Shown piece by piece: positions 2,271 through 11,983 of a DNA stretch of 55,483 nt; positions within the stretch are counted from its first letter, which is position 1; each line of letters starts with the position of its first letter. Position numbers and translations under genes: made by a program. Source of the DNA: Bacteroidetes bacterium HGW-Bacteroidetes-1 (GTDB lineage Bacteria; Bacteroidota; Bacteroidia; Bacteroidales; F082); NCBI GenBank assembly GCA_002842755.1, contig PHDU01000032.1, positions 1 to 55,483 on the forward strand, read 5' to 3'. The notes below the pieces were generated by a model that saw nothing but the letters and a program-made list of their open reading frames with translations, was not told where the DNA came from and made no database searches.

Positions 2271-4775
2271 TTATCTGAGCACGAGTTTTTTAACTTCTTT
2301 TTTCTCTCCTGTCTGAATCATTAGCATATACATTCCCTTTGGATGTGACGAAAGATTCAGCTTTGCTGATTGTCCGTTCCACTCAAACTGATCCATGAGA
2401 TTGCCGGTTAAAGTGTATAATTTGATGGTAGAAGCGCTGTAAACTTCAGTGCCGCTAACAGATACTTCTATCAATCCTGTAGTAGGATTGGGATAAACCA
2501 CAAACTCCGAAGCATATATTTTTTCTCCAACGCCAACGATAGGATTGGTAGCAAAAACAACCAGATTGCAGGCCACATCAAGTACAGGATTGAAACCATC
2601 ATTGCAGTCGGAGCAAGTTACCCCTGTTACACAATCGGGATGATTCGGATGACATAGATCGACATATTGTTCGTAAAACTTATACTGAAGCGTGAAGTTG
2701 CCATTTGAAACATAAGGTGTCATATTAAAATCAAACCATTGGGCAATTGAGCCGGGACACCAACCTGCACGGTTGTGATACCATGTTCCGCTTTGGGGTT
2801 GACAACCATCCGGATTTGGATTGCAAACATTCCAGTTGTGTTGTGTGAATGTTTCTGCACCATTTACCCATAAATGGTGTGTAGCATTATAAAACTCAGC
2901 TGCATTACTTGTATTGAGATCGCCCCAGCCATGGCCTGACGAAACAAGCTTCAACTTTGATGCGATAGCATTATCAGGAAACTCAAACGACCAGTCTTCA
3001 ACTGGCTGAAGGTTGGCGTAATCACCAAAAGGATAAACATCTTTCCAAACTTCATAAACCGAACTATAGAGATAAGTTGGGGTTCCTTGCCGGTAATTGA
3101 GTGTTAATTTATATTCGTAACCGTTATCCAATGTTTCGCAATTGAACCGAAAACTTACTTTTCCCTGAAGTAAAGACATATAATCTGTCAGATCAATTGT
3201 GTGGGAACATGCTACACCATAAGGTGTTATATATCGTATAACCTCAAACCAGCGACCGTCAATACCTCTGGCATCAACGCTGGCTTTACGATCCCACTCG
3301 CCGCAACCTCCTGAAGGGCAGGATACTTCGAGTGTGGCTGTGATCTGGTCGAAAGCTCCAAGATAGGAAGGTAGTTCGGCTTCCACAGTCTGGGTGGCAT
3401 TGCTTGGACTTATCCAAACATCTTCAGCAGCAACAACTGTCATGTTAGTAGCATCTGCAACAACATTGATATTTACATTTTGTGTTGCTGAAGCACCAAA
3501 ATTATTGGTCGAAATGATTGTTAATACGTAGTTTCCATGTGAAGGAGGTGTCCACCAAGCTGTATAAAATCCTTTACTATACAAATCCTGAGCAGGAATA
3601 TTTTGTCCATTGACCTGAAACATCACATCCTGAACAGAGAACAATTCAGGATAATCTATACTCGTCTTGACAGAAAGTTGTACTGGCGATAGTGATGGCA
3701 TATACAAATTTCCTGGTAGAGGATGACGTGCATCAATTACCGGAACAAAGGTTGTGGGGTTCAGAACCATAAAGCAATTGTCGATTGGAACTGCCGGGTC
3801 ATATTGATCATTACCGGGTTGTGATGCTCTCACTGTTACCTGTCCGGCTTGTCCGGTAAGTGTAATTGTGTTTCCACTGATGGTAGCCGGACCGGAAATA
3901 ATTTCAAAAATAACAGGCAGACCTGAAGTTGCTGATGCTTCGATAGTAAATGGCTGATCTGTTGTAAGCCGGTTTGTAATCTGTGGAAAAGAAATGGCTT
4001 GGTAACCTGCATCGAGTGTTCCATTGAAATTAGAAGTTTCACCTGTCATAGCAAAATTCATCAGGTCGGCATCACGTTCTCCAGTGCCAATTTCGCAAAT
4101 TAGTTTTGTGATGCTTGTATTATCACCTCCAGGCTCACCTTGATTAAATTTGTAATACAAATGAAGATCGGGTTCATTTCCTGTGGGCTCTGTTTCCATC
4201 ATTGACTGAATTTCGGTTTGTGTGAGTGCTTTCTTCCAAACAGTGACTTCATCGATCCTGCCGCCATAAACAAAATTGAAACCGCCCAAAAGGCTTTTTC
4301 CAATTCCAAATGGCACATTTTCGCCAAGAAATATACCGGAAGCAGCTGCACTTCCTCTTAGAACGCCATTTACATAGAGTTTGACTGTGTTCACATCAAA
4401 AACCCATGCAATGTGCTGCCAAACCTGCGGAATTGCCGTATTGGCTGGAGAAACGTACTGGTGTAGTCCTGTGGTGGTAACCAAACGACATTCCATCACC
4501 CCATTGTTCAGCTGAATGAGGTAAAACTCCGCATTGCCCGAACCTACCCTGAAACCCATATACCCTTGCCCATAAACAAGAGCATCAGTGTAAAACCAAC
4601 CTGTCATAGTGAGTTGGGTTGTGTTGGAAAAGTATTGCGAAGCATTTTGCAAAATTGCAAAATCATCGACTCCATCGAAATGCAGATACTGATTTGACTG
4701 CGCATTCAGAAGTGCAGGCTGCATGAAGAACAAAACAACGAATAGCGCAAGCATTTTTGAGTAGATTTTTTTCAT
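2271..4775 (-). CDS. Secreted PNGase F-like peptide-N-glycosidase with LamG domain and T9SS sorting domain
   Basis: Likely cleaves N-glycans from glycoprotein asparagines outside the cell. An 834-residue precursor. Domains in order: signal peptide (1-25); LamG/concanavalin-like domain (about 28-215, opening LHFDGVDDFA); an Ig-like linker region (about 270-440); a PNGase F-like catalytic region (about 445-745); a T9SS sorting domain (about 755-834, opening VVYPNPTTG and ending KKLVLR). Remembered PNGase F landmarks align: CDEWDRYANV with CGEWDRKASV (491-500), FITPY with YITPY, and RAGWCPG identical (669-675). The three catalytic acids of PNGase F (Asp60, Glu118, Glu206) correspond to Asp495, Glu547 and Glu627. 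The usual N-terminal bowl domain of type II enzymes is absent; LamG may replace it as a glycan-binding module. It lies 63 bases after the SusD gene and so is probably the third gene of the SusC operon. Specificity, including tolerance of core fucose, cannot be read from sequence. Confidence 0.82.
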   Translation of the reverse strand: MKKIYSKMLALFVVLFFMQPALLNAQSNQYLHFDGVDDFAILQNASQYFSNTTQLTMTGWFYTDALVYGQGYMGFRVGSGNAEFYLIQLNNGVMECRLVTTTGLHQYVSPANTAIPQVWQHIAWVFDVNTVKLYVNGVLRGSAAASGIFLGENVPFGIGKSLLGGFNFVYGGRIDEVTVWKKALTQTEIQSMMETEPTGNEPDLHLYYKFNQGEPGGDNTSITKLICEIGTGERDADLMNFAMTGETSNFNGTLDAGYQAISFPQITNRLTTDQPFTIEASATSGLPVIFEIISGPATISGNTITLTGQAGQVTVRASQPGNDQYDPAVPIDNCFMVLNPTTFVPVIDARHPLPGNLYMPSLSPVQLSVKTSIDYPELFSVQDVMFQVNGQNIPAQDLYSKGFYTAWWTPPSHGNYVLTIISTNNFGASATQNVNINVVADATNMTVVAAEDVWISPSNATQTVEAELPSYLGAFDQITATLEVSCPSGGCGEWDRKASVDARGIDGRWFEVIRYITPYGVACSHTIDLTDYMSLLQGKVSFRFNCETLDNGYEYKLTLNYRQGTPTYLYSSVYEVWKDVYPFGDYANLQPVEDWSFEFPDNAIASKLKLVSSGHGWGDLNTSNAAEFYNATHHLWVNGAETFTQHNWNVCNPNPDGCQPQSGTWYHNRAGWCPGSIAQWFDFNMTPYVSNGNFTLQYKFYEQYVDLCHPNHPDCVTGVTCSDCNDGFNPVLDVACNLVVFATNPIVGVGEKIYASEFVVYPNPTTGLIEVSVSGTEVYSASTIKLYTLTGNLMDQFEWNGQSAKLNLSSHPKGMYMLMIQTGEKKEVKKLVLR

Positions 4776-4838
4776 AATGTTTTTGTTTTTGAGTTACTAT
4801 TTAATTCTTAACTAGAATTTCAATTGAATTATAAGTTT

Positions 4839-6476
4839 TCAAAAAATCCACCATAATTTCACCTGAGGAGCATCTCCGCCTTGCTGGGATATTGCAGCTG
4901 ACATGCTTTCGCTGTTGTATGCTGCCTCAGAAGGTGGATAAGGAAGACGAAAATGGTTTAAAGGGATTCCGTTGCTGGGTGTTAATGCGGTTCTGCGTGC
5001 TAATGCATATGCTTCCGCTGGTTGCCTGAAAGCATCAAGCCACCATTGTGTATAAATAAACTGAAGCTTTTGTTCATCAGATGTTGCATTCCAAAAGCCA
5101 AATTGCATTTGCACAGATACTGGAGTGATGTTGCTGGGGATAGGAATTGTTTCCGGAAAAGTCATTGAAGATGAGGGTAATTTCGAGTTTCGGGAAACTT
5201 GCATCCACCATTCCACCGAGGAGTTGATTCCATTTAAATATTCAATTTCAGCCTGAACCTTGTCCATGCCCACGCCAATACCACGAAAATATGCCTCTGC
5301 CAGAAGGAAATGAGTTTCTGCGCCGGTAATGAGTATTATGGGCATAAAGTCTTCATCACGCACAACGAAATAGTTGAAAGGAGAATAGATGCAGGTTTCG
5401 CCTTTTATTTGAAATGCTCCAAGCTGGTCGCGATGCGATCCATAAGGTATTCCTCCTGAAGATGGTGTATTTATATCAGGCAGCTGAGGGTAAGGTTTCC
5501 ACTTGTTCGCATTATTGGTTTCAAAAAATATATAGGCTCTGGGGTCAAAAATGCCGCTTCCATCGATACTGTCATGGCGTGAAAGTTGACGCCAAACATT
5601 AGACCCCATTCGGAGGTTGTTGTGTTCGCGGAACGACCAGTTAAGACTTTCGTTTTTGAAACCCATTGCCGATGGCCATAAACAAGCACTTTCAAGCAAA
5701 GGATTGATGAAATCATATCCCTGAATGACGGGGAGATTGTTATCAACGATTTCTTTGATGATACTACCAGCAAGCTCAGGTTCTATTTCTGACATCCGCA
5801 TGGCATGCCTTAAGCGCAGTGAATTGGCAAGTTTTCTCCATTTAAGCATATCACCGTTAAAAAGTTTATCGAAGCCGATAAAAGTTCCATAAGCTCCTGT
5901 AAGTGGTACTGCGAGAGTGATATTTTCTTCTGCCCATTGAAGGTCTTCCAGCAATTGGAGGTAGATTTCCCGCTGAGAGTCGTAACCCGGACGTAGCTGG
6001 TTCAAATCCTGAAAGCCATATCCAGCCTTACTGAAGGGTATGTCGCCAAACAAATCGGTTACTTTGAAGGTTTTCATCGCAAGGGTAATTTTGAGCATTG
6101 CTTGCATATTTATTACACCAGGTGATTCTTCATAAGATTCCATTCTTTTTTCGAGTTCCCTTATTTCAGGCAATGTGCCATAATAATTTGTCCAGATGCT
6201 TTCTGTGCCAATTGTATAATTGCCCCATGCTTCCTTTGTGAGGGCTGCAAGCTGGGTTTGCTTATAAAGTATCTCGTTGTTGATATAAAACTGTTCATCG
6301 CCTGTGGGTATCAAAGATTGAATCACAGTGTTGAAAAGTGATCCATCGCTGGCGGTAGTGAATCCGTGTGGGTTTGTGTTTATTTCATCAAAATTTTTGG
6401 TGCATGAAGTCAATGTAATCAGACTTATCGCAGAAATTCCAAAAATCAACATTATTGCTTTCATTACTTTTTTCAT
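4839..6476 (-). CDS. SusD/RagB-like glycan-binding outer-membrane lipoprotein (SusD-like_2 type)
   Basis: This is a 545-residue lipoprotein with a hydrophobic signal followed by lipobox TLTSC (Cys25) and then the NFDEINTNP motif that begins many SusD-like_2 proteins. SusD proteins sit over the SusC channel as a lid and hold the oligosaccharide before TonB-driven import. The helical TPR-like body is consistent with the LAEAYFRG and LKITLAMKTFKVTD segments. The gene starts 9 bases after the SusC stop and precedes the PNGase F-like gene, so the three are probably co-transcribed. The ligand is inferred from neighbours (N-glycan or glycopeptide), not from the protein. Confidence 0.9.
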   Translation of the reverse strand: MKKVMKAIMLIFGISAISLITLTSCTKNFDEINTNPHGFTTASDGSLFNTVIQSLIPTGDEQFYINNEILYKQTQLAALTKEAWGNYTIGTESIWTNYYGTLPEIRELEKRMESYEESPGVINMQAMLKITLAMKTFKVTDLFGDIPFSKAGYGFQDLNQLRPGYDSQREIYLQLLEDLQWAEENITLAVPLTGAYGTFIGFDKLFNGDMLKWRKLANSLRLRHAMRMSEIEPELAGSIIKEIVDNNLPVIQGYDFINPLLESACLWPSAMGFKNESLNWSFREHNNLRMGSNVWRQLSRHDSIDGSGIFDPRAYIFFETNNANKWKPYPQLPDINTPSSGGIPYGSHRDQLGAFQIKGETCIYSPFNYFVVRDEDFMPIILITGAETHFLLAEAYFRGIGVGMDKVQAEIEYLNGINSSVEWWMQVSRNSKLPSSSMTFPETIPIPSNITPVSVQMQFGFWNATSDEQKLQFIYTQWWLDAFRQPAEAYALARRTALTPSNGIPLNHFRLPYPPSEAAYNSESMSAAISQQGGDAPQVKLWWIF

Positions 6477-6485
6477 TTTCGTTGA

Positions 6486-9400
6486 TTAAAATCCGGCACT
6501 CAACCCAAGTACAAATGACCTTGTTCCGGGATAAGAGGCCCACTCAAAACCTTGTGCATTGCCGGCTCCCATAATTCCTTCAGGATTTATTTTATCGGGT
6601 AATGTTGTATAGATGTAAAATAAATCACGTCCTGTAACCGAAAGGGTGAGGCTTTGAAATATTTTAGTTTTATCAATAATTTTTGTGGGTAAGGTGTAGG
6701 ACATTGATATTTCACGCATTTTAACCCAGGTATTTTCCAAAATTCCGGGTGTTGAAACAAACTTTCCCCATCCGCCTGCATTGGGCAGGTATTTGTAAAA
6801 ATAATGAACTACAGTGGTGTTTGGTGTTCCATCTTCATGCACGCCAGGCAAAATGACTCCGATATTACTGGTGTTTCCGGCCGGATCGGTATAAGGCAAG
6901 CCACCGCCTTCGCGCTCAATCAGTGTTTCTGGGCTTTGACCTGTCTGAAGTGAAATCACATACGAACCACTGTAAATATCGCCACCCCATTTGGTGTCAA
7001 TAAGCATGCTTAATTTGAAGCCTTTATAGGTAAGCATTGCATTCCAGCCTGCGATAAAATCCGGTGAGGCATTACCGATGGGTACGCGGCTGTCGGTAAT
7101 AAGGTATTTTGTTCCTTCAGCATTTAAAACACGGTTGCCATTATCATCGTAAATATAGGCGTATCCGCTGATGGTTCCAAAGTCATCGCCGACTTCAAGT
7201 ACCATCGCCGGGCCATTCAATCCCCAGATATCAGCCAAAAGGTAAGTGTCTGCATCGCTACCAAGACTAACAACCTTATTTCTGTTTCTTGCAATATTAA
7301 ATCCACTTCTGATGGTGAGATGTTTTGTTCGGACAGGCACAGTATTCAAAATAATTTCAAAGCCTCTGTTGGTCAGCACGCCTTCATTGGTCATAATATT
7401 TGATGCACCGGAAGATGTAGGAATTGGAAGGTTGGGAATAATCTGATCAAAAGAATAGAGGTAATAATAAGTGAAGTCAAGATCGATTCTGTTATCAAAG
7501 AACCCAAAGTTTAAACCCGTTTCATAAGCATTTACACGTTGTGGCTTCAATAATTTCGGTGGAATTGTTAAAGGAAAATTTGAAGTTTGTTGTCCTCCAA
7601 ACCTAGCTGTATTGTAATAGAATGAAAGTAGATAGGGGTCTGTATCTGTTGCTGTTTGGGCCAAACCACCTCTGATTTTCATGAAATTTAACCAAGGAAT
7701 TATTTCTGCAAAATTGAATACCTCTGACGGGATAAAACTTAAAGAAAGGGAAGGGTAGAAGTAGGAGTTTGCGCCGGCAGGAAGCGTAGATGACCAGTCG
7801 TTTCGGCCTGTAAGTTCAAGGAAAAGATAATTGGCATATGACAAGTTGAGGAAAGAGTAAACAGAATTATTGCGTTTGCGCAGAATGCCTTCAACTGGTA
7901 TCATGGATTGTGCTGAATTACCGGGTTGCTCCACAATGGTAGTGTTATTGTCATCGGTTGTGAAAATGGTTTCAGTGTAATTGAAGAAGGTGTACATATT
8001 GGGATAATACCATGTGCCGGAATGCCCATTGATGAAGTAATAATCTTGATTCCATCGACTGGAACCAGCTGTAAATCTTATGTCAAATGAAGAGTTCAAT
8101 ACTTTATCTTTAAATGCAGTGACAGTAAAATCATAATTATCACCAATATTTCTTGAAAGGCCGTTGCTGTAATATCCATCCTGAAGTCCGATCACATCGA
8201 TGGGTTTGTTTCTTGTTTCAAACTGTTCGATGGTAAAATCACGTCCAACTCTTCCCTGTGCGCTAATTCCCGTAACGATGTCATAAGTTAAAGTTAGTGC
8301 GGCTGTATATTTGTCCCTGTTCAGCGTTGTATTATTGTTGTAATAACCCCACCATAGCGTTGGACTCACATAATAAAACGGATATCCTTCCTGCGGGTTT
8401 TGTGAGCCGTCAGCGTTTTGATAATTTTGTTTATCGATACCTTGATAACTTCTCGGCCATGAATAGAGCAATCCTTTATTGAATGAATTCGCATCTTCGC
8501 CGAGCATCGGGCTGTTTAATCTTTGAAAGTTGATAAAGGAAACGGTGACATCGGTTTTCAGTTTTTCACTGATGTTCAGATTGGCTCCAAGGTTTATCGT
8601 TGTTCGGTTGAAATTGCTGTTATCAACAATAGGTTTGTTGTCCTGTCGTGTTAAAGAAACCCTCATCGTACCCTTTTCGTTTCCTCCTGTGGCCGATATG
8701 TTGTGTGTCACTGTATATCCGTTTTGATAAGGAATTTTGAGATTATCGGGCTGTGGTGACCATGATCTCATTTTCCCATCCCACCATTTCACCAGCTGAC
8801 CCTCCATTTTCGGGCCCCAGGAAACGGCAGGGCCATAATATCCAAACTCAGCACTGGTGCTGGAGGTTTCACCCTGTTGATTGATGATAAGATTTTCGTT
8901 TCCATAAATGCCGGGATAAAGCAAAGTGTCGCCCGACATAGGAAATACAGCAGGGGTAAATGAAATCGGGCCTCCATGACCATAAATATTCTGCACTTCC
9001 CGGTAGCGGTATGGGTTAGTGGTTTTGTAATCAACATTATAAGTTATTCCAATCCCTTTTTGTTTGCTACCACGTTTTGTGGTGATAAATAATACGCCGT
9101 TTGCACCCCTTGATCCATAAAGTGCCGATGCCGCTCCACCTTTCATGAGTGTCATATTTTCAATGTCGAAGGCGTTCAGGTCGTTTATTACGCTTCCCCA
9201 ATCGACACCTCTGCCAATATTTGTAAGTCCTGGAATATTTTCCATGGGAATATTGTCAACTACTATCAATGGTTGATTGTCGGTGCCAATATTGTTATTT
9301 CCTCTTATAACAATTCTGGTTGAGCCTCCTTCAACACCATCCGACTGGGAAATCTGTACACCTGCCGAACGACCTGAAAGGGCATTTAAAACATTGGGTG

Positions 9401-9806
9401 CTTTTGAATCGACAATGACTGATGACTCAACTTTTTCGGTTGAATAACCGATTTCACGCTTTTGGCGTCTGATACCTAAAGCGGTTACGACGACTTCTTC
9501 AAGCTCTTTGGTGCTTTCTTTGAGCTTTATGTTAATTACTTTTTTTCCTTCAACGGGTATCTCAACAGTTTCGTACCCCACAAAACTGATTACAAGCACT
9601 GATTCTTCTTTGATTCCGGAAATAGTAAAATTACCATCAAAGTCTGTAACAGCGCCAATCAAAGTGCCCTTTATCTGCACTGTGACACCAATTAGCGGCA
9701 AGCCATCTTCAGCAGCGGTTATGGTGCCATTGATGGTTAAATCCTGCGCAACAAGTGCACGGATAAGTAGCAATAAGAAAGCAAACGTGAAAGTGATTTT
9801 TTTCAT
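6486..9806 (-). CDS. SusC/RagA-family TonB-linked outer-membrane transporter
   Basis: About 1,106 residues. Order: signal peptide; carboxypeptidase-D-like regulatory domain (about 20-105, TINGTITAAEDGLPLIG); TonB-box-like EEVVVTALG; plug domain (about 120-240, with GRSAGVQISQSDG and VIRGNNNIG); then a large 22-strand-type barrel ending in an aromatic strand (LGLSAGF). It imports oligosaccharides or glycopeptides bound by the adjacent SusD. The open frame extends 10 codons further up to 9836, but a TAnnTTTG box ends three bases before that ATG, and the signal peptide begins at the ATG at 9806 (MKKITF). I therefore place the start there. No sigma/anti-sigma pair or hybrid two-component sensor, common PUL regulators, lies beside it. 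Confidence 0.92.
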   Translation of the reverse strand: MKKITFTFAFLLLLIRALVAQDLTINGTITAAEDGLPLIGVTVQIKGTLIGAVTDFDGNFTISGIKEESVLVISFVGYETVEIPVEGKKVINIKLKESTKELEEVVVTALGIRRQKREIGYSTEKVESSVIVDSKAPNVLNALSGRSAGVQISQSDGVEGGSTRIVIRGNNNIGTDNQPLIVVDNIPMENIPGLTNIGRGVDWGSVINDLNAFDIENMTLMKGGAASALYGSRGANGVLFITTKRGSKQKGIGITYNVDYKTTNPYRYREVQNIYGHGGPISFTPAVFPMSGDTLLYPGIYGNENLIINQQGETSSTSAEFGYYGPAVSWGPKMEGQLVKWWDGKMRSWSPQPDNLKIPYQNGYTVTHNISATGGNEKGTMRVSLTRQDNKPIVDNSNFNRTTINLGANLNISEKLKTDVTVSFINFQRLNSPMLGEDANSFNKGLLYSWPRSYQGIDKQNYQNADGSQNPQEGYPFYYVSPTLWWGYYNNNTTLNRDKYTAALTLTYDIVTGISAQGRVGRDFTIEQFETRNKPIDVIGLQDGYYSNGLSRNIGDNYDFTVTAFKDKVLNSSFDIRFTAGSSRWNQDYYFINGHSGTWYYPNMYTFFNYTETIFTTDDNNTTIVEQPGNSAQSMIPVEGILRKRNNSVYSFLNLSYANYLFLELTGRNDWSSTLPAGANSYFYPSLSLSFIPSEVFNFAEIIPWLNFMKIRGGLAQTATDTDPYLLSFYYNTARFGGQQTSNFPLTIPPKLLKPQRVNAYETGLNFGFFDNRIDLDFTYYYLYSFDQIIPNLPIPTSSGASNIMTNEGVLTNRGFEIILNTVPVRTKHLTIRSGFNIARNRNKVVSLGSDADTYLLADIWGLNGPAMVLEVGDDFGTISGYAYIYDDNGNRVLNAEGTKYLITDSRVPIGNASPDFIAGWNAMLTYKGFKLSMLIDTKWGGDIYSGSYVISLQTGQSPETLIEREGGGLPYTDPAGNTSNIGVILPGVHEDGTPNTTVVHYFYKYLPNAGGWGKFVSTPGILENTWVKMREISMSYTLPTKIIDKTKIFQSLTLSVTGRDLFYIYTTLPDKINPEGIMGAGNAQGFEWASYPGTRSFVLGLSAGF

Positions 9807-9838
9807 ATACCTGCAATTTGGCAGTTGTTTATTCATTT

Positions 9839-9846
9839 CAAAATTA
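9839..9846 (-). promoter_or_regulatory. Promoter -7 element (TAATTTTG) of the SusC-SusD-PNGase operon
   Basis: An exact TAnnTTTG match on the minus strand (plus strand reads CAAAATTA). Transcription would start at about 9832-9835, leaving a leader of roughly 26-29 bases before the preferred SusC start at 9806. No clear TTTG -33 element is at the right distance. Confidence 0.45.
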
Positions 9847-9951
9847 CAAAAAGAATCAAATGTTTAACGATTTTGATTTCATGAATTAATTCAGTATAAA
9901 AAATAGACATTTTTAACCTGATTAATTCATAGTATAAACTTGAAAAAAGAC

Positions 9952-9977
9952 AAAAGAAAAAAGTAAAAAGACAAAAG
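9952..9977 (+). repeat. Purine-rich tract shared with the repeat at 46591
   Basis: A 26-base A/G tract (AAAAGAAAAAAGTAAAAAGA then one variable base then AAAAG) that recurs in the same orientation at 46591-46616 with a single C/T difference. Here it is separated from the 56-bp core by about 30 bases; at 46.6 kb it overlaps the core directly. Confidence 0.7.
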
Positions 9978-10009
9978 AATTATAACATTAGCAAGGAAAT
10001 CAAATAAAA

Positions 10010-10065
10010 TCATCTTTACAAAATAAATTATGAAAATAGATTGGTTGCAACTGCCTGACTTTTAT
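10010..10065 (+). repeat. 56-bp repeat, copy 1
   Basis: The sequence beginning TCATCTTTACAAAATAAATT and ending CTGCCTGACTTTTAT is found as an exact reverse complement at 46610-46665. A perfect 56-base match outside any gene here, and inside a broken gene there, points to a dispersed mobile repeat or a shared insertion fragment. It carries no obvious terminal inverted repeats or ORF. Confidence 0.85.
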
Positions 10066-10479
10066 TTCATACAAAAAGTAGATAATATTTCCGAATAAAA
10101 AAAGTTTTTCGTATTCCAATTTCCTTGGTGCGTAAAATCGGATATCCTCTTTTTTAAATCTGAAGATGTAAGGCATTATATCTTAACGAAGTGAATCATA
10201 ATGAAAATCTTTTACCAGTCCGCTGATTGGCATTTTATGAATCTCATTCGAAGAAGGATCGCCTTTAACAAATTTGTTTTCCAACTGCAGTGTTAATAAT
10301 TTTCAGATACCAAACTTAATAGAAATTGCAACAAATTGTTACGAGAGCACATTTCAAAATAATACTTTCTTCTTACTTAAGGGATTGCTTTTCAGGCGAT
10401 AAAAAACTCTGTTTAGAAAGGATAAGCTAAGTTTAAATAAATCTGCATGCTTTATTGTTTTTTACAAAGTAATGTTTTT

Positions 10480-10487
10480 TAAATTTG
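10480..10487 (+). promoter_or_regulatory. Promoter -7 element (TAAATTTG) of the fucosidase gene
   Basis: An exact TAnnTTTG with a TTG at 10455-10457, 22 bases upstream, as a possible -33 element. It lies downstream of the first ATG of the open frame (10472), which argues that translation begins later, at 10526 (or 10502). Confidence 0.5.
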
Positions 10488-10525
10488 AGCATGTAATTTC
10501 AATGGGTAAACGCAATATCAATCAT

Positions 10526-11983
10526 ATGAAAAATCAATGTATACCAATGCTGTTTTTTTTGTTTTTAACCCTAGCATGCAGCAGGCCTGCAGCTGAAGCC
10601 CTTGAAGACAATAATACATATCAGTTTCCAGAAGATCCCTTTGTAAGGGAAAAACTTGACAGCTGGAGCGACTGGAAGTTTGGAATTATCATACATTGGG
10701 GGCCATACAGCGAGTGGGGAATTGTCGAAAGCTGGAGTCTTTGCCCTGAAGATGAACCCTGGTGCGAACGTCGTGGGCCATATGCTGAAGATTATGCCAC
10801 CTATTTGAAAGCTTACAAGGACATTCAGAAACAGTTTTATCCTGAAACATTTAATCCCGAAGGGTGGGCAAAAGCAGCCAAAAAAGCAGGAATGAAATAT
10901 GTTGTTTTTACTACTAAGCACCATGACGGATTCAGCATGTTCGATACAAAATACTCTGATTATAAAATTACCGGTAGTGAAAGTCGATTTGCTGAACATC
11001 CAAAAAGCAATGTTGTCGAAGAAGTATTTTCAGCTTTTCGTAATCAGGGGCTTGGAATTGGCGCCTATTTCAGTAAGGCCGACTGGCACCATCATGATTA
11101 CTGGTGGCCCTATTTTCCTTCTCTCGATCGCAACGTGAACTACAATCCTGAGAAGTATCCTGAAAAGTGGCAGCGCTTTAAAGATTTCATTTTTAATCAG
11201 ATACAAGAGTTGATGAGCGATTATGGGAAAATTGATCTGCTTTGGCTCGATGGTGGATGGGTGCGGCCAGCCGCCTCACTAACAGAGGAAACCCGTTCTT
11301 GGTTGGGGAAAAACCAGTGGATACAGGATATTGATATGCCAGCAATTGCAAAAATGGCACGCCAGCACCAACCTGGTTTGCTTATTGTGGATCGCACTGT
11401 GCATGGTGAATTTGAAAACTATCGCACCCCTGAACAACAAATTCCTACTACAATACCTGACTATCCTTGGGAAAGCTGTATAACGCTGGGCGATAGCTGG
11501 TACAGTACCGGTCCGAATGAAGAATATAAATCGGTACATTGGGCAGTTCATACACTCGTTAAAATTGTCTCAAAAGGCGGAAACCTTCTCCTTGGTGTTG
11601 GTCCTGATAAAACCGGAGAGTTCGTTCCTGAAGTATATGAGCGCCTTGAAGAAATCGGAAAATGGATGGAAATTAATGATAAAGCCATTTACAATACCCG
11701 TCCTTTATATCCTTACGAAGAAGATAAATTGTATTTTACACAATCAAAAGATGGTCAGAAAAGCTATGCTTTTTATCTTTCTCAGGAAGAGGAAGAATTA
11801 CCGGAAACCATTGTGCTGTCTAAAGTATTCTTAAAAGATGCATTTGAAGTCAGACTACTTGGCTTTGATGATTTGCTTCCAGTTGTAACCCACAAAGACC
11901 ATAAATCGGTAAATCTGACTCATTCGATCCGTATGAAATTTAAAGACTGTCCGGCATTGGTTTTTGCAATTGAAAACCAATGA
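10526..11983 (+). CDS. GH29 alpha-L-fucosidase, lipoprotein
   Basis: It removes terminal alpha-L-fucose from glycans by a retaining mechanism. The chosen start (ATG 10526) gives 485 residues beginning with a lipoprotein-type signal (hydrophobic run then LTLAC, Cys18). The open frame reaches 18 codons further, but the upstream ATG lies before the promoter box. GH29 hallmarks in order: WKFGIIIHWGPYS; Trp/Cys-rich loop; KYVVFTTKHHDGFSMFDT (the His-His substrate-binding motif); GIGAYFSKADWHH; and LLWLDGGW, whose Asp (about 242) is the expected nucleophile. A small beta-sandwich C-terminal domain follows. It is divergent from the SusC-SusD-PNGase operon, consistent with trimming fucose from the released or captured N-glycan. 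The linkage acted on cannot be told. Confidence 0.93.
   Translation: MKNQCIPMLFFLFLTLACSRPAAEALEDNNTYQFPEDPFVREKLDSWSDWKFGIIIHWGPYSEWGIVESWSLCPEDEPWCERRGPYAEDYATYLKAYKDIQKQFYPETFNPEGWAKAAKKAGMKYVVFTTKHHDGFSMFDTKYSDYKITGSESRFAEHPKSNVVEEVFSAFRNQGLGIGAYFSKADWHHHDYWWPYFPSLDRNVNYNPEKYPEKWQRFKDFIFNQIQELMSDYGKIDLLWLDGGWVRPAASLTEETRSWLGKNQWIQDIDMPAIAKMARQHQPGLLIVDRTVHGEFENYRTPEQQIPTTIPDYPWESCITLGDSWYSTGPNEEYKSVHWAVHTLVKIVSKGGNLLLGVGPDKTGEFVPEVYERLEEIGKWMEINDKAIYNTRPLYPYEEDKLYFTQSKDGQKSYAFYLSQEEEELPETIVLSKVFLKDAFEVRLLGFDDLLPVVTHKDHKSVNLTHSIRMKFKDCPALVFAIENQ

Follow-up and report, generated by a model that had tools for sequence, protein, structure and literature searches.

The window analysed here is a 55,483-nucleotide stretch of Bacteroidetes bacterium HGW-Bacteroidetes-1 (contig PHDU01000032.1, 1-55,483; all coordinates below are window positions). 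Three adjacent genes on its minus strand encode, in order, a SusC/RagA TonB-dependent transporter, a SusD-like lipoprotein and a homologue of the peptide:N-glycanase (PNGase) PNGase F, and we propose that this trio is probably a minimal N-glycan foraging operon, in which glycan release by the PNGase at the cell surface would be paired with uptake by SusCD. The SusC frame (6486-9836) scores 566.7 bits against TIGR04056 (cut-off 368.25). It probably opens 10 codons early; the most likely start is the Met at its 11th codon, position 9806, since the resulting length of 1106 residues recurs in several relatives. The SusD-like gene (4839-6476; 545 residues, with a lipobox-like stretch recognised by eye) matches PF12741 at 154.3 bits and PF12771 at 152.6 bits, and the PNGase gene (2271-4775) encodes 834 residues. 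With an adjacent SusC-SusD pair and a degrading enzyme, the trio has the make-up of a polysaccharide utilization locus (PUL). The list of open reading frames (ORFs) gives the same gene order and the same gaps, 9 and 63 bases, as a preliminary description of this DNA. That description also had the PUL opening with a glycoamidase, which was wrong: the glycoamidase is the third gene.

The product of the third gene is homologous to PNGase F, as the preliminary description had it, and its glycoamidase activity is predicted from this homology and from the residues it has kept. The assignment is supported by the agreement of profile, sequence, catalytic residues and structural model. Of the two Pfam profiles proposed earlier as a check, PF09113 (N-glycanase_C) matches with an E value of 8.2e-13 and 48.8 bits (cut-off 25), and PF09112, the N-terminal half, gives no match in the window PNGase at E 0.1; one relative (L063) reaches 21.8 bits with PF09112, just under the cut-off of 22.4. 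In a phmmer search, the solved PNGase F (1pnf) matches residues 476-701 with E 1e-24, covering parts of both halves, and a profile of 19 members of the enzyme's class matches the solved PNGase F with E 2e-46 over profile positions 457-702, again in part of each half. A scan of genome contigs yielded 430 PNGase relatives, of which the best 80 loci, the nearest fifth, were examined. The window protein and 69 of these 80 form a 70-member alignment of the class, the other 11 loci being excluded by a filter (825-870 residues, Met start). The AlphaFold model built from the 70-row alignment has a pLDDT of 84.7, and in a Foldseek search of this model against the PDB the PNGase F entries 1pnf, 1png, 1pgs and 3pms take ranks 1-4 with TM scores of 0.80-0.83 over full-length PNGase F. 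Type II PNGases follow, and then a zebrafish lysosomal PNGase. The structural check suggested earlier was thus borne out for the overall fold, the individual residues being compared by sequence. A side result concerns the zebrafish enzyme: the class profile matches the ovum lysosomal peptide:N-glycanase 9lwg with E 7e-15, more strongly than it matches the Bacteroides PNGases 3ks7, 7zgn and 4qhb (4e-6 to 7e-6).

The PNGase is modular, with all its parts encoded on the minus strand. A LamG/concanavalin-like domain at residues 38-190 (4206-4664) matches PF13385 (Laminin_G_3) with E 6.3e-22, and two predicted beta-sandwich modules follow at residues ~260-440 (3456-3998), seen in the secondary structure of the model and without a Pfam match. 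The PNGase F-like catalytic part, two jelly rolls at residues ~445-742 (2550-3443), is delimited by phmmer to 1pnf and 3pms, the class profile and Foldseek. At residues 760-833 (2277-2498) lies a C-terminal sorting tail (type A) of the type IX secretion system (T9SS), which matches PF18962 with E 6.5e-13 and TIGR04183 with 46.3 bits and whose Pro-Asn-Pro motif is invariant in the 70 aligned members. Aligned by sequence rather than superposed in three dimensions, Asp495 (3291-3293), Glu547 (3135-3137), Glu627 (2895-2897) and Arg669 correspond to Asp60, Glu118, Glu206 and Arg248 of PNGase F. Asp495, Glu627 and Arg669 are invariant in all 70 members, as is the equivalent of Trp251, and Glu547 is kept in 12. 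An aromatic-Asp-positive motif is broadly conserved among PNGases, according to the available part of PMC12381499, and most class members have it, since Trp494 (equivalent to Trp59) is kept in 67 of the 70 and Arg496 (equivalent to Arg61) in 64.

The trio recurs well beyond the window. SusC and SusD lie immediately upstream of the PNGase gene in 59 of the 80 loci (in some of which SusC is cut by the contig end), and the median gaps in these intact trios are 15 and 68 bases; the preliminary description had staked its proposal on such a linkage in related genomes. Five further loci have both genes with one gene between, five have SusC downstream of the PNGase (followed by SusD in L140, L141, L143 and L149, and with SusD upstream in L129), in two the contig stops after SusD, and two are undecidable. 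The remaining seven were scored as lacking SusC and SusD. Neighbours were classified with the window SusC and SusD as queries by a script that stops at the first opposite-strand ORF, which is why L142 is counted among these seven even though SusD and SusC lie upstream behind such an ORF. Among 22 other class copies found in the relatives' whole genomes, 17 have SusD and SusC upstream (in L063 with one LamG protein between); the other five comprise one with SusD at a contig start, two fragments at contig ends and two with neither gene. The distance matrices of the three proteins also match, as expected of genes inherited together: across 50 trios, r is 0.92 for SusC-SusD, 0.80 for SusC-PNGase and 0.75 for SusD-PNGase, with 0 of 2000 permutations in each case. 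These 50 are the trios, among the 59, with SusC longer than 1050 and SusD longer than 500 residues, and the trio genes were compared only among themselves. The conserved unit is the SusC-SusD-PNGase trio and not the trio plus fucosidase, so that of the compact locus first described (the trio and a GH29 fucosidase) the trio stands and the GH29 linkage is not conserved in relatives.

Two other PNGase classes, of ~560 and ~1150 residues, show no directly upstream SusC and SusD at any of their 9 and 11 loci, respectively, as judged with the window SusC and SusD as the only queries, which divergent pairs could escape, and on contigs of which a few are short. A weak SusC match (50 bits) lies on the other strand in L068. 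The ~1150-residue proteins form a third PNGase class in L051-L056 and L058-L062; the one member scanned, in L053, carries LamG and a T9SS tail.

The genome around the trio fits N-glycan use. Three families are known to free N-glycans from protein, namely GH18, GH85 and PNGase, as stated in the available part of PMC10154615. Neither GH18 nor GH85 has a match in the window's own genome assembly and the trio PNGase is its only PF09113 match, which makes this enzyme the genome's only match among the three families. The earlier point that the locus relies on a glycoamidase rather than an endo-glucosaminidase thus extends to the whole genome as assembled. The same assembly encodes two GH92 proteins, one GH20 protein, one glycosylasparaginase and one DUF4838 protein, a family that we take to be GH163. 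GH163 enzymes cut antennae (PMC10154615, same part). Matches to BNR are weak only. SprA is present (an SprA_N match in a 2448-residue frame) and, together with the C-terminal tail and a signal peptide judged by eye, it marks the PNGase as a T9SS substrate. Twelve SusC proteins of the genome score above the cut-off, the trio SusC lowest among them.

From these elements we envisage the following sequence of events. The PNGase would reach the outside of the cell by type IX secretion, either for display or for release, a location to which the T9SS tail and the presence of SprA point. There, its PNGase F-like domain would cut the Asn-GlcNAc (N-acetylglucosamine) bond of glycoproteins or glycopeptides and free the whole glycan, including both core GlcNAc residues. 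The LamG domain may serve to hold the glycoprotein, standing in for a surface glycan-binding protein (SGBP), which the operon lacks, and the SusC and SusD of the trio would import the freed glycan. Inside, GH92 alpha-mannosidases, the GH20 hexosaminidase and the GH29 fucosidase, all encoded elsewhere than in the operon, would finish its degradation. The glycosylasparaginase would act on Asn-GlcNAc stubs arriving by another route, and it would represent a second, probably internal, way of dealing with the Asn-GlcNAc bond. In the window genome one of the two GH92 genes and the genes for GH20 and glycosylasparaginase lie together on another contig (C195, 10628-18116; L159). This glycosylasparaginase scores 364.6 bits against a solved N4-(beta-N-acetylglucosaminyl)-L-asparaginase and at most 133.5 bits against chains otherwise named, aspartylglucosaminidase aside. 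Of the 28 genomes with a gene of this type, 15 have it no more than 10 kb from GH20 or GH92, only the window genome's own copy having been compared with solved structures.

A number of observations weigh against the operon being an N-glycan foraging system. Six of the 80 loci (L098, L128, L136, L146 of Neptunitalea chrysea, L150 and L151 of Mangrovimonas aestuarii) have no recognised SusC or SusD beside the PNGase, and Glu118 is replaced in 58 of the 70 aligned members, so that activity is not to be assumed across the class. The enzymes that would complete the pathway are also common where the class is absent: within the family, GH92 is found in 16 of 16 genomes with the class and 20 of 21 without, and GH20 in 16 of 16 and 16 of 21 (p 0.057). 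Across all 61 genomes, each of the two occurs in 19 of 19 with the class and 30 of 42 without (p 0.012), the 19 including two fragments (G002, G041) and a 731-residue variant (G029). GH92 and GH20 thus show a capacity rather than a specific coupling with the PNGase, and GH18 does not separate the genomes either, being present in 5 of 19 with the class and 13 of 42 without. The family scan found no glycosidase inside the operon. Finally, the closest solved match of the trio SusC is BT2264, which scores 275 bits where the second-best entry has 150. Crystals of BT2264 reportedly held peptides.

The last two of these points are the starting place for a different reading, in which SusCD imports peptides or glycopeptides, deglycosylation by the PNGase opens the protein to digestion and uptake, and the glycan is a by-product. 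The proximity of SusC to BT2264 and the lack of an operon glycosidase suit this reading, as do peptidase genes downstream in some loci (S9 in L096; S41/tricorn in L148 and L152) and the glycosylasparaginase of the genome, which fits the import of Asn-linked stubs. The SusD evidence runs the other way: the window SusD matches BT2263, the partner of BT2264, with E 0.002 only, against 1e-22 to 1e-26 for SGBPs and SusDs named as glycan-binding, among them a chitin-binding one. At 8 of 56 loci, moreover, the gene directly upstream of SusC encodes a LacI-type regulator, and regulators of this type are usually sugar sensors, which fits a sugar inducer. (The window itself has no match to a LacI-type regulator, the one regulator type that was searched.) Peptide import seems unlikely to us. 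We favour glycans rather than peptides as the SusCD cargo, because the pair is of the PUL type and accompanies an enzyme that releases glycans, and because of the LacI-type gene at those eight loci.

A second alternative would join the GH29 gene to the trio as one PUL for fucosylated N-glycans, co-regulated from the region between them. The GH29 alpha-L-fucosidase, a probable lipoprotein as judged by eye, lies divergently upstream at 10472-11983 on the plus strand, as first described (PF01120, E 1.9e-92; solved homologue 6gn6, E 6.3e-49), and 635 bases (9837-10471) separate its ORF from that of SusC. It is the only PF01120 match in the genome, and GH29 is enriched in genomes with the class: 17 of 19 against 14 of 42 without (p 6e-5), and 6 of 8 against 4 of 20 within the family with the window's own genus excluded (p 0.011), neither value being corrected for kinship. 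Other GH29 genes follow the PNGase gene, on its own strand, in 3 of the 80 loci (L096, L097 and L132; a dolphin mouth is suggested as the habitat of L132). These observations suit a single PUL, but the relatives do not. In the two nearest (G006 and G003), the PNGases are 92% identical to that of the window and the GH29 proteins 80.0% and 78.5% identical, yet neither of these GH29 genes shares a contig with the trio, and none of their neighbours matches a gene of the window. A search for the window GH29 in 42 relatives' stretches found matches only in L069 and L072, both without the trio, and no relative's trio stretch matched it, though several of these stretches end at or near SusC. Alignment of the intergenic region with the nearest relative tested (L043) shows clear likeness only in the last stretch before SusC, the best conserved part (around 9806-9865) lying just upstream of the SusC start. 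We therefore regard a shared PUL as improbable: the pairing looks particular to this genome and the GH29 gene only a local neighbour, because the relatives' GH29 genes lie on other contigs and are absent from their trio stretches. A weaker link to fucose survives in the genome-level co-occurrence of GH29 and in the downstream GH29 genes of the three loci.

Elsewhere in three relatives (G003, G006 and G015; L160, L161 and L164) GH29, GH20 and GH92 form a cluster with a LacI-type gene, which stands after GH92 in L160 and L161 and between GH20 and GH92 in L164; this cluster was not seen beside the trio. The window genome does not have the cluster in the relatives' form, since it has no second GH29. 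A simple scan for palindromes in six upstream stretches revealed no LacI-type operator common to trio and cluster.

The class varies at the position of Glu547. The residues there in the 70 members are Glu (12), Gly (14), Ala (13), Ser (8), Met (6), Pro (5), Tyr (4), Val (3), Gln (2), Thr (2) and Leu (1). The available part of PMC9522356 reports that Glu118 of PNGase F blocks core alpha-1,3-fucose and that type II enzymes carry Gly instead. The window PNGase has Glu here rather than the Gly that is the type II hallmark and, for that reason, looks type I at this residue, which most of its class does not. Because Glu118 is usually replaced, the core fucosylation that is accepted probably varies between members of the class. 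A compensating acidic residue was sought in the members without Glu118 and no clear candidate was found, the best column, 630, being acidic in 31 of the 58. Extra PNGase copies, often diverged, suggest a division of specificity; they stand head-to-tail in L093, L094, L103, L128, L138, L140, L143 and L149, with up to three in a row in L103 and L138, whereas in L083 and L095 the extra copy lies beyond SusC. More tentatively, the combination of LamG, PNGase and T9SS tail with SusCD might be a large surface glycoamidase family of Bacteroidota, diversified through the Glu118 gate and tandem duplication for environmental Asn-linked glycans with cores beyond those of PNGase F (of algae, invertebrates and perhaps archaeal surface proteins). 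That the PNGase is instead no longer catalytic, its LamG and degenerate PNGase domains serving SusCD as a surface glycan-binding protein, might be read from the frequent loss of Glu118 (to Gly, Ala, Ser, Met and others) and from diverged tandem copies such as those in L103 and L138, but it is very unlikely in view of the 70/70 conservation of the Asp60, Glu206, Arg248 and Trp251 equivalents, the near-constancy of Trp59 and Arg61, the Glu118 kept in the window member and the active type II enzymes that also do without Glu118 (PMC9522356, available part).

N-glycan foraging in Bacteroidota has been described mainly from gut and oral species, where core release is often the work of GH18 enzymes. 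Against this background the trio would be a compact alternative in mostly uncultured lineages. The Gpd complex of Capnocytophaga canimorsus reportedly uses an endo-beta-N-acetylglucosaminidase, not a glycoamidase. It resembles the proposed system as a surface complex that deglycosylates N-glycoproteins for growth, as described in the available part of PMC3128124. With PNGase F of Elizabethkingia meningoseptica (1PNF/1PGS/3PMS) the window enzyme shares the catalytic fold and the four aligned residues Asp60, Glu118, Glu206 and Arg248; it is 24-25% identical, adds the LamG domain, the beta-sandwich modules and the T9SS tail, and has Gly for Asp57, His for Trp191, Phe for Trp207 and a gap at Trp120. 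The type II enzymes PNGF-II (4R4X) and B035DRAFT_03341 (7ZGN) also share the catalytic fold by Foldseek and, like most class members, do without Glu118. They differ from the window enzyme in that the sequence match is weak (7zgn, E 5e-6), the window N-terminus is LamG by Pfam and Glu is kept at 118.

The gut species B. sartorii, B. vulgatus and B. helcogenes have a PNGase beside SusC/D, in B. sartorii with nothing else, to go by the available part of PMC9522356. The pair of Bacteroides enzymes that paper examines carry type I signals and are regarded as periplasmic, whereas LamG and a T9SS tail mark the window enzyme, and trios of its kind are found in many Bacteroidota. By description, PNGaseDo and PNGaseL resemble the window enzyme in their T9SS tails, and PNGaseDo carries three accessory modules of beta-sheet as well (PMC12381499, available part). 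In that part of PMC12381499 a PNGase operon with fucosidases, a mannosidase, GH18 and an asparaginase is already published; most of the six PNGase genes are orphans and the T9SS-tailed PNGaseDo is not the exception named, which is a further point against tying such enzymes to foraging operons. Both the placing of a PNGase next to susC/D and the T9SS tail on PNGases that have accessory modules have thus been published before. In the open-licence literature, a search for PNGase, SusC and SusD together, each as a whole word, came back empty, a weak negative, since it passed over PMC9522356, where the names are spelled differently; one paper combines PNGase with T9SS. The present analysis contributes a trio that is conserved, the secretion tail that belongs to it, its distribution over mostly uncultured Bacteroidota and a Glu118 gate that varies. 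The class offers natural variation at the residue that decides on core fucose, useful for glycan analysis, and the trio is a simple SusCD system for a direct test of cargo, glycan or peptide.

The PNGase gene also has a neighbour on its other side. A secreted protein with a T9SS tail and no other family match is encoded at 675-2162, convergent with the PNGase gene, and 108 bases lie between the ends of the two.

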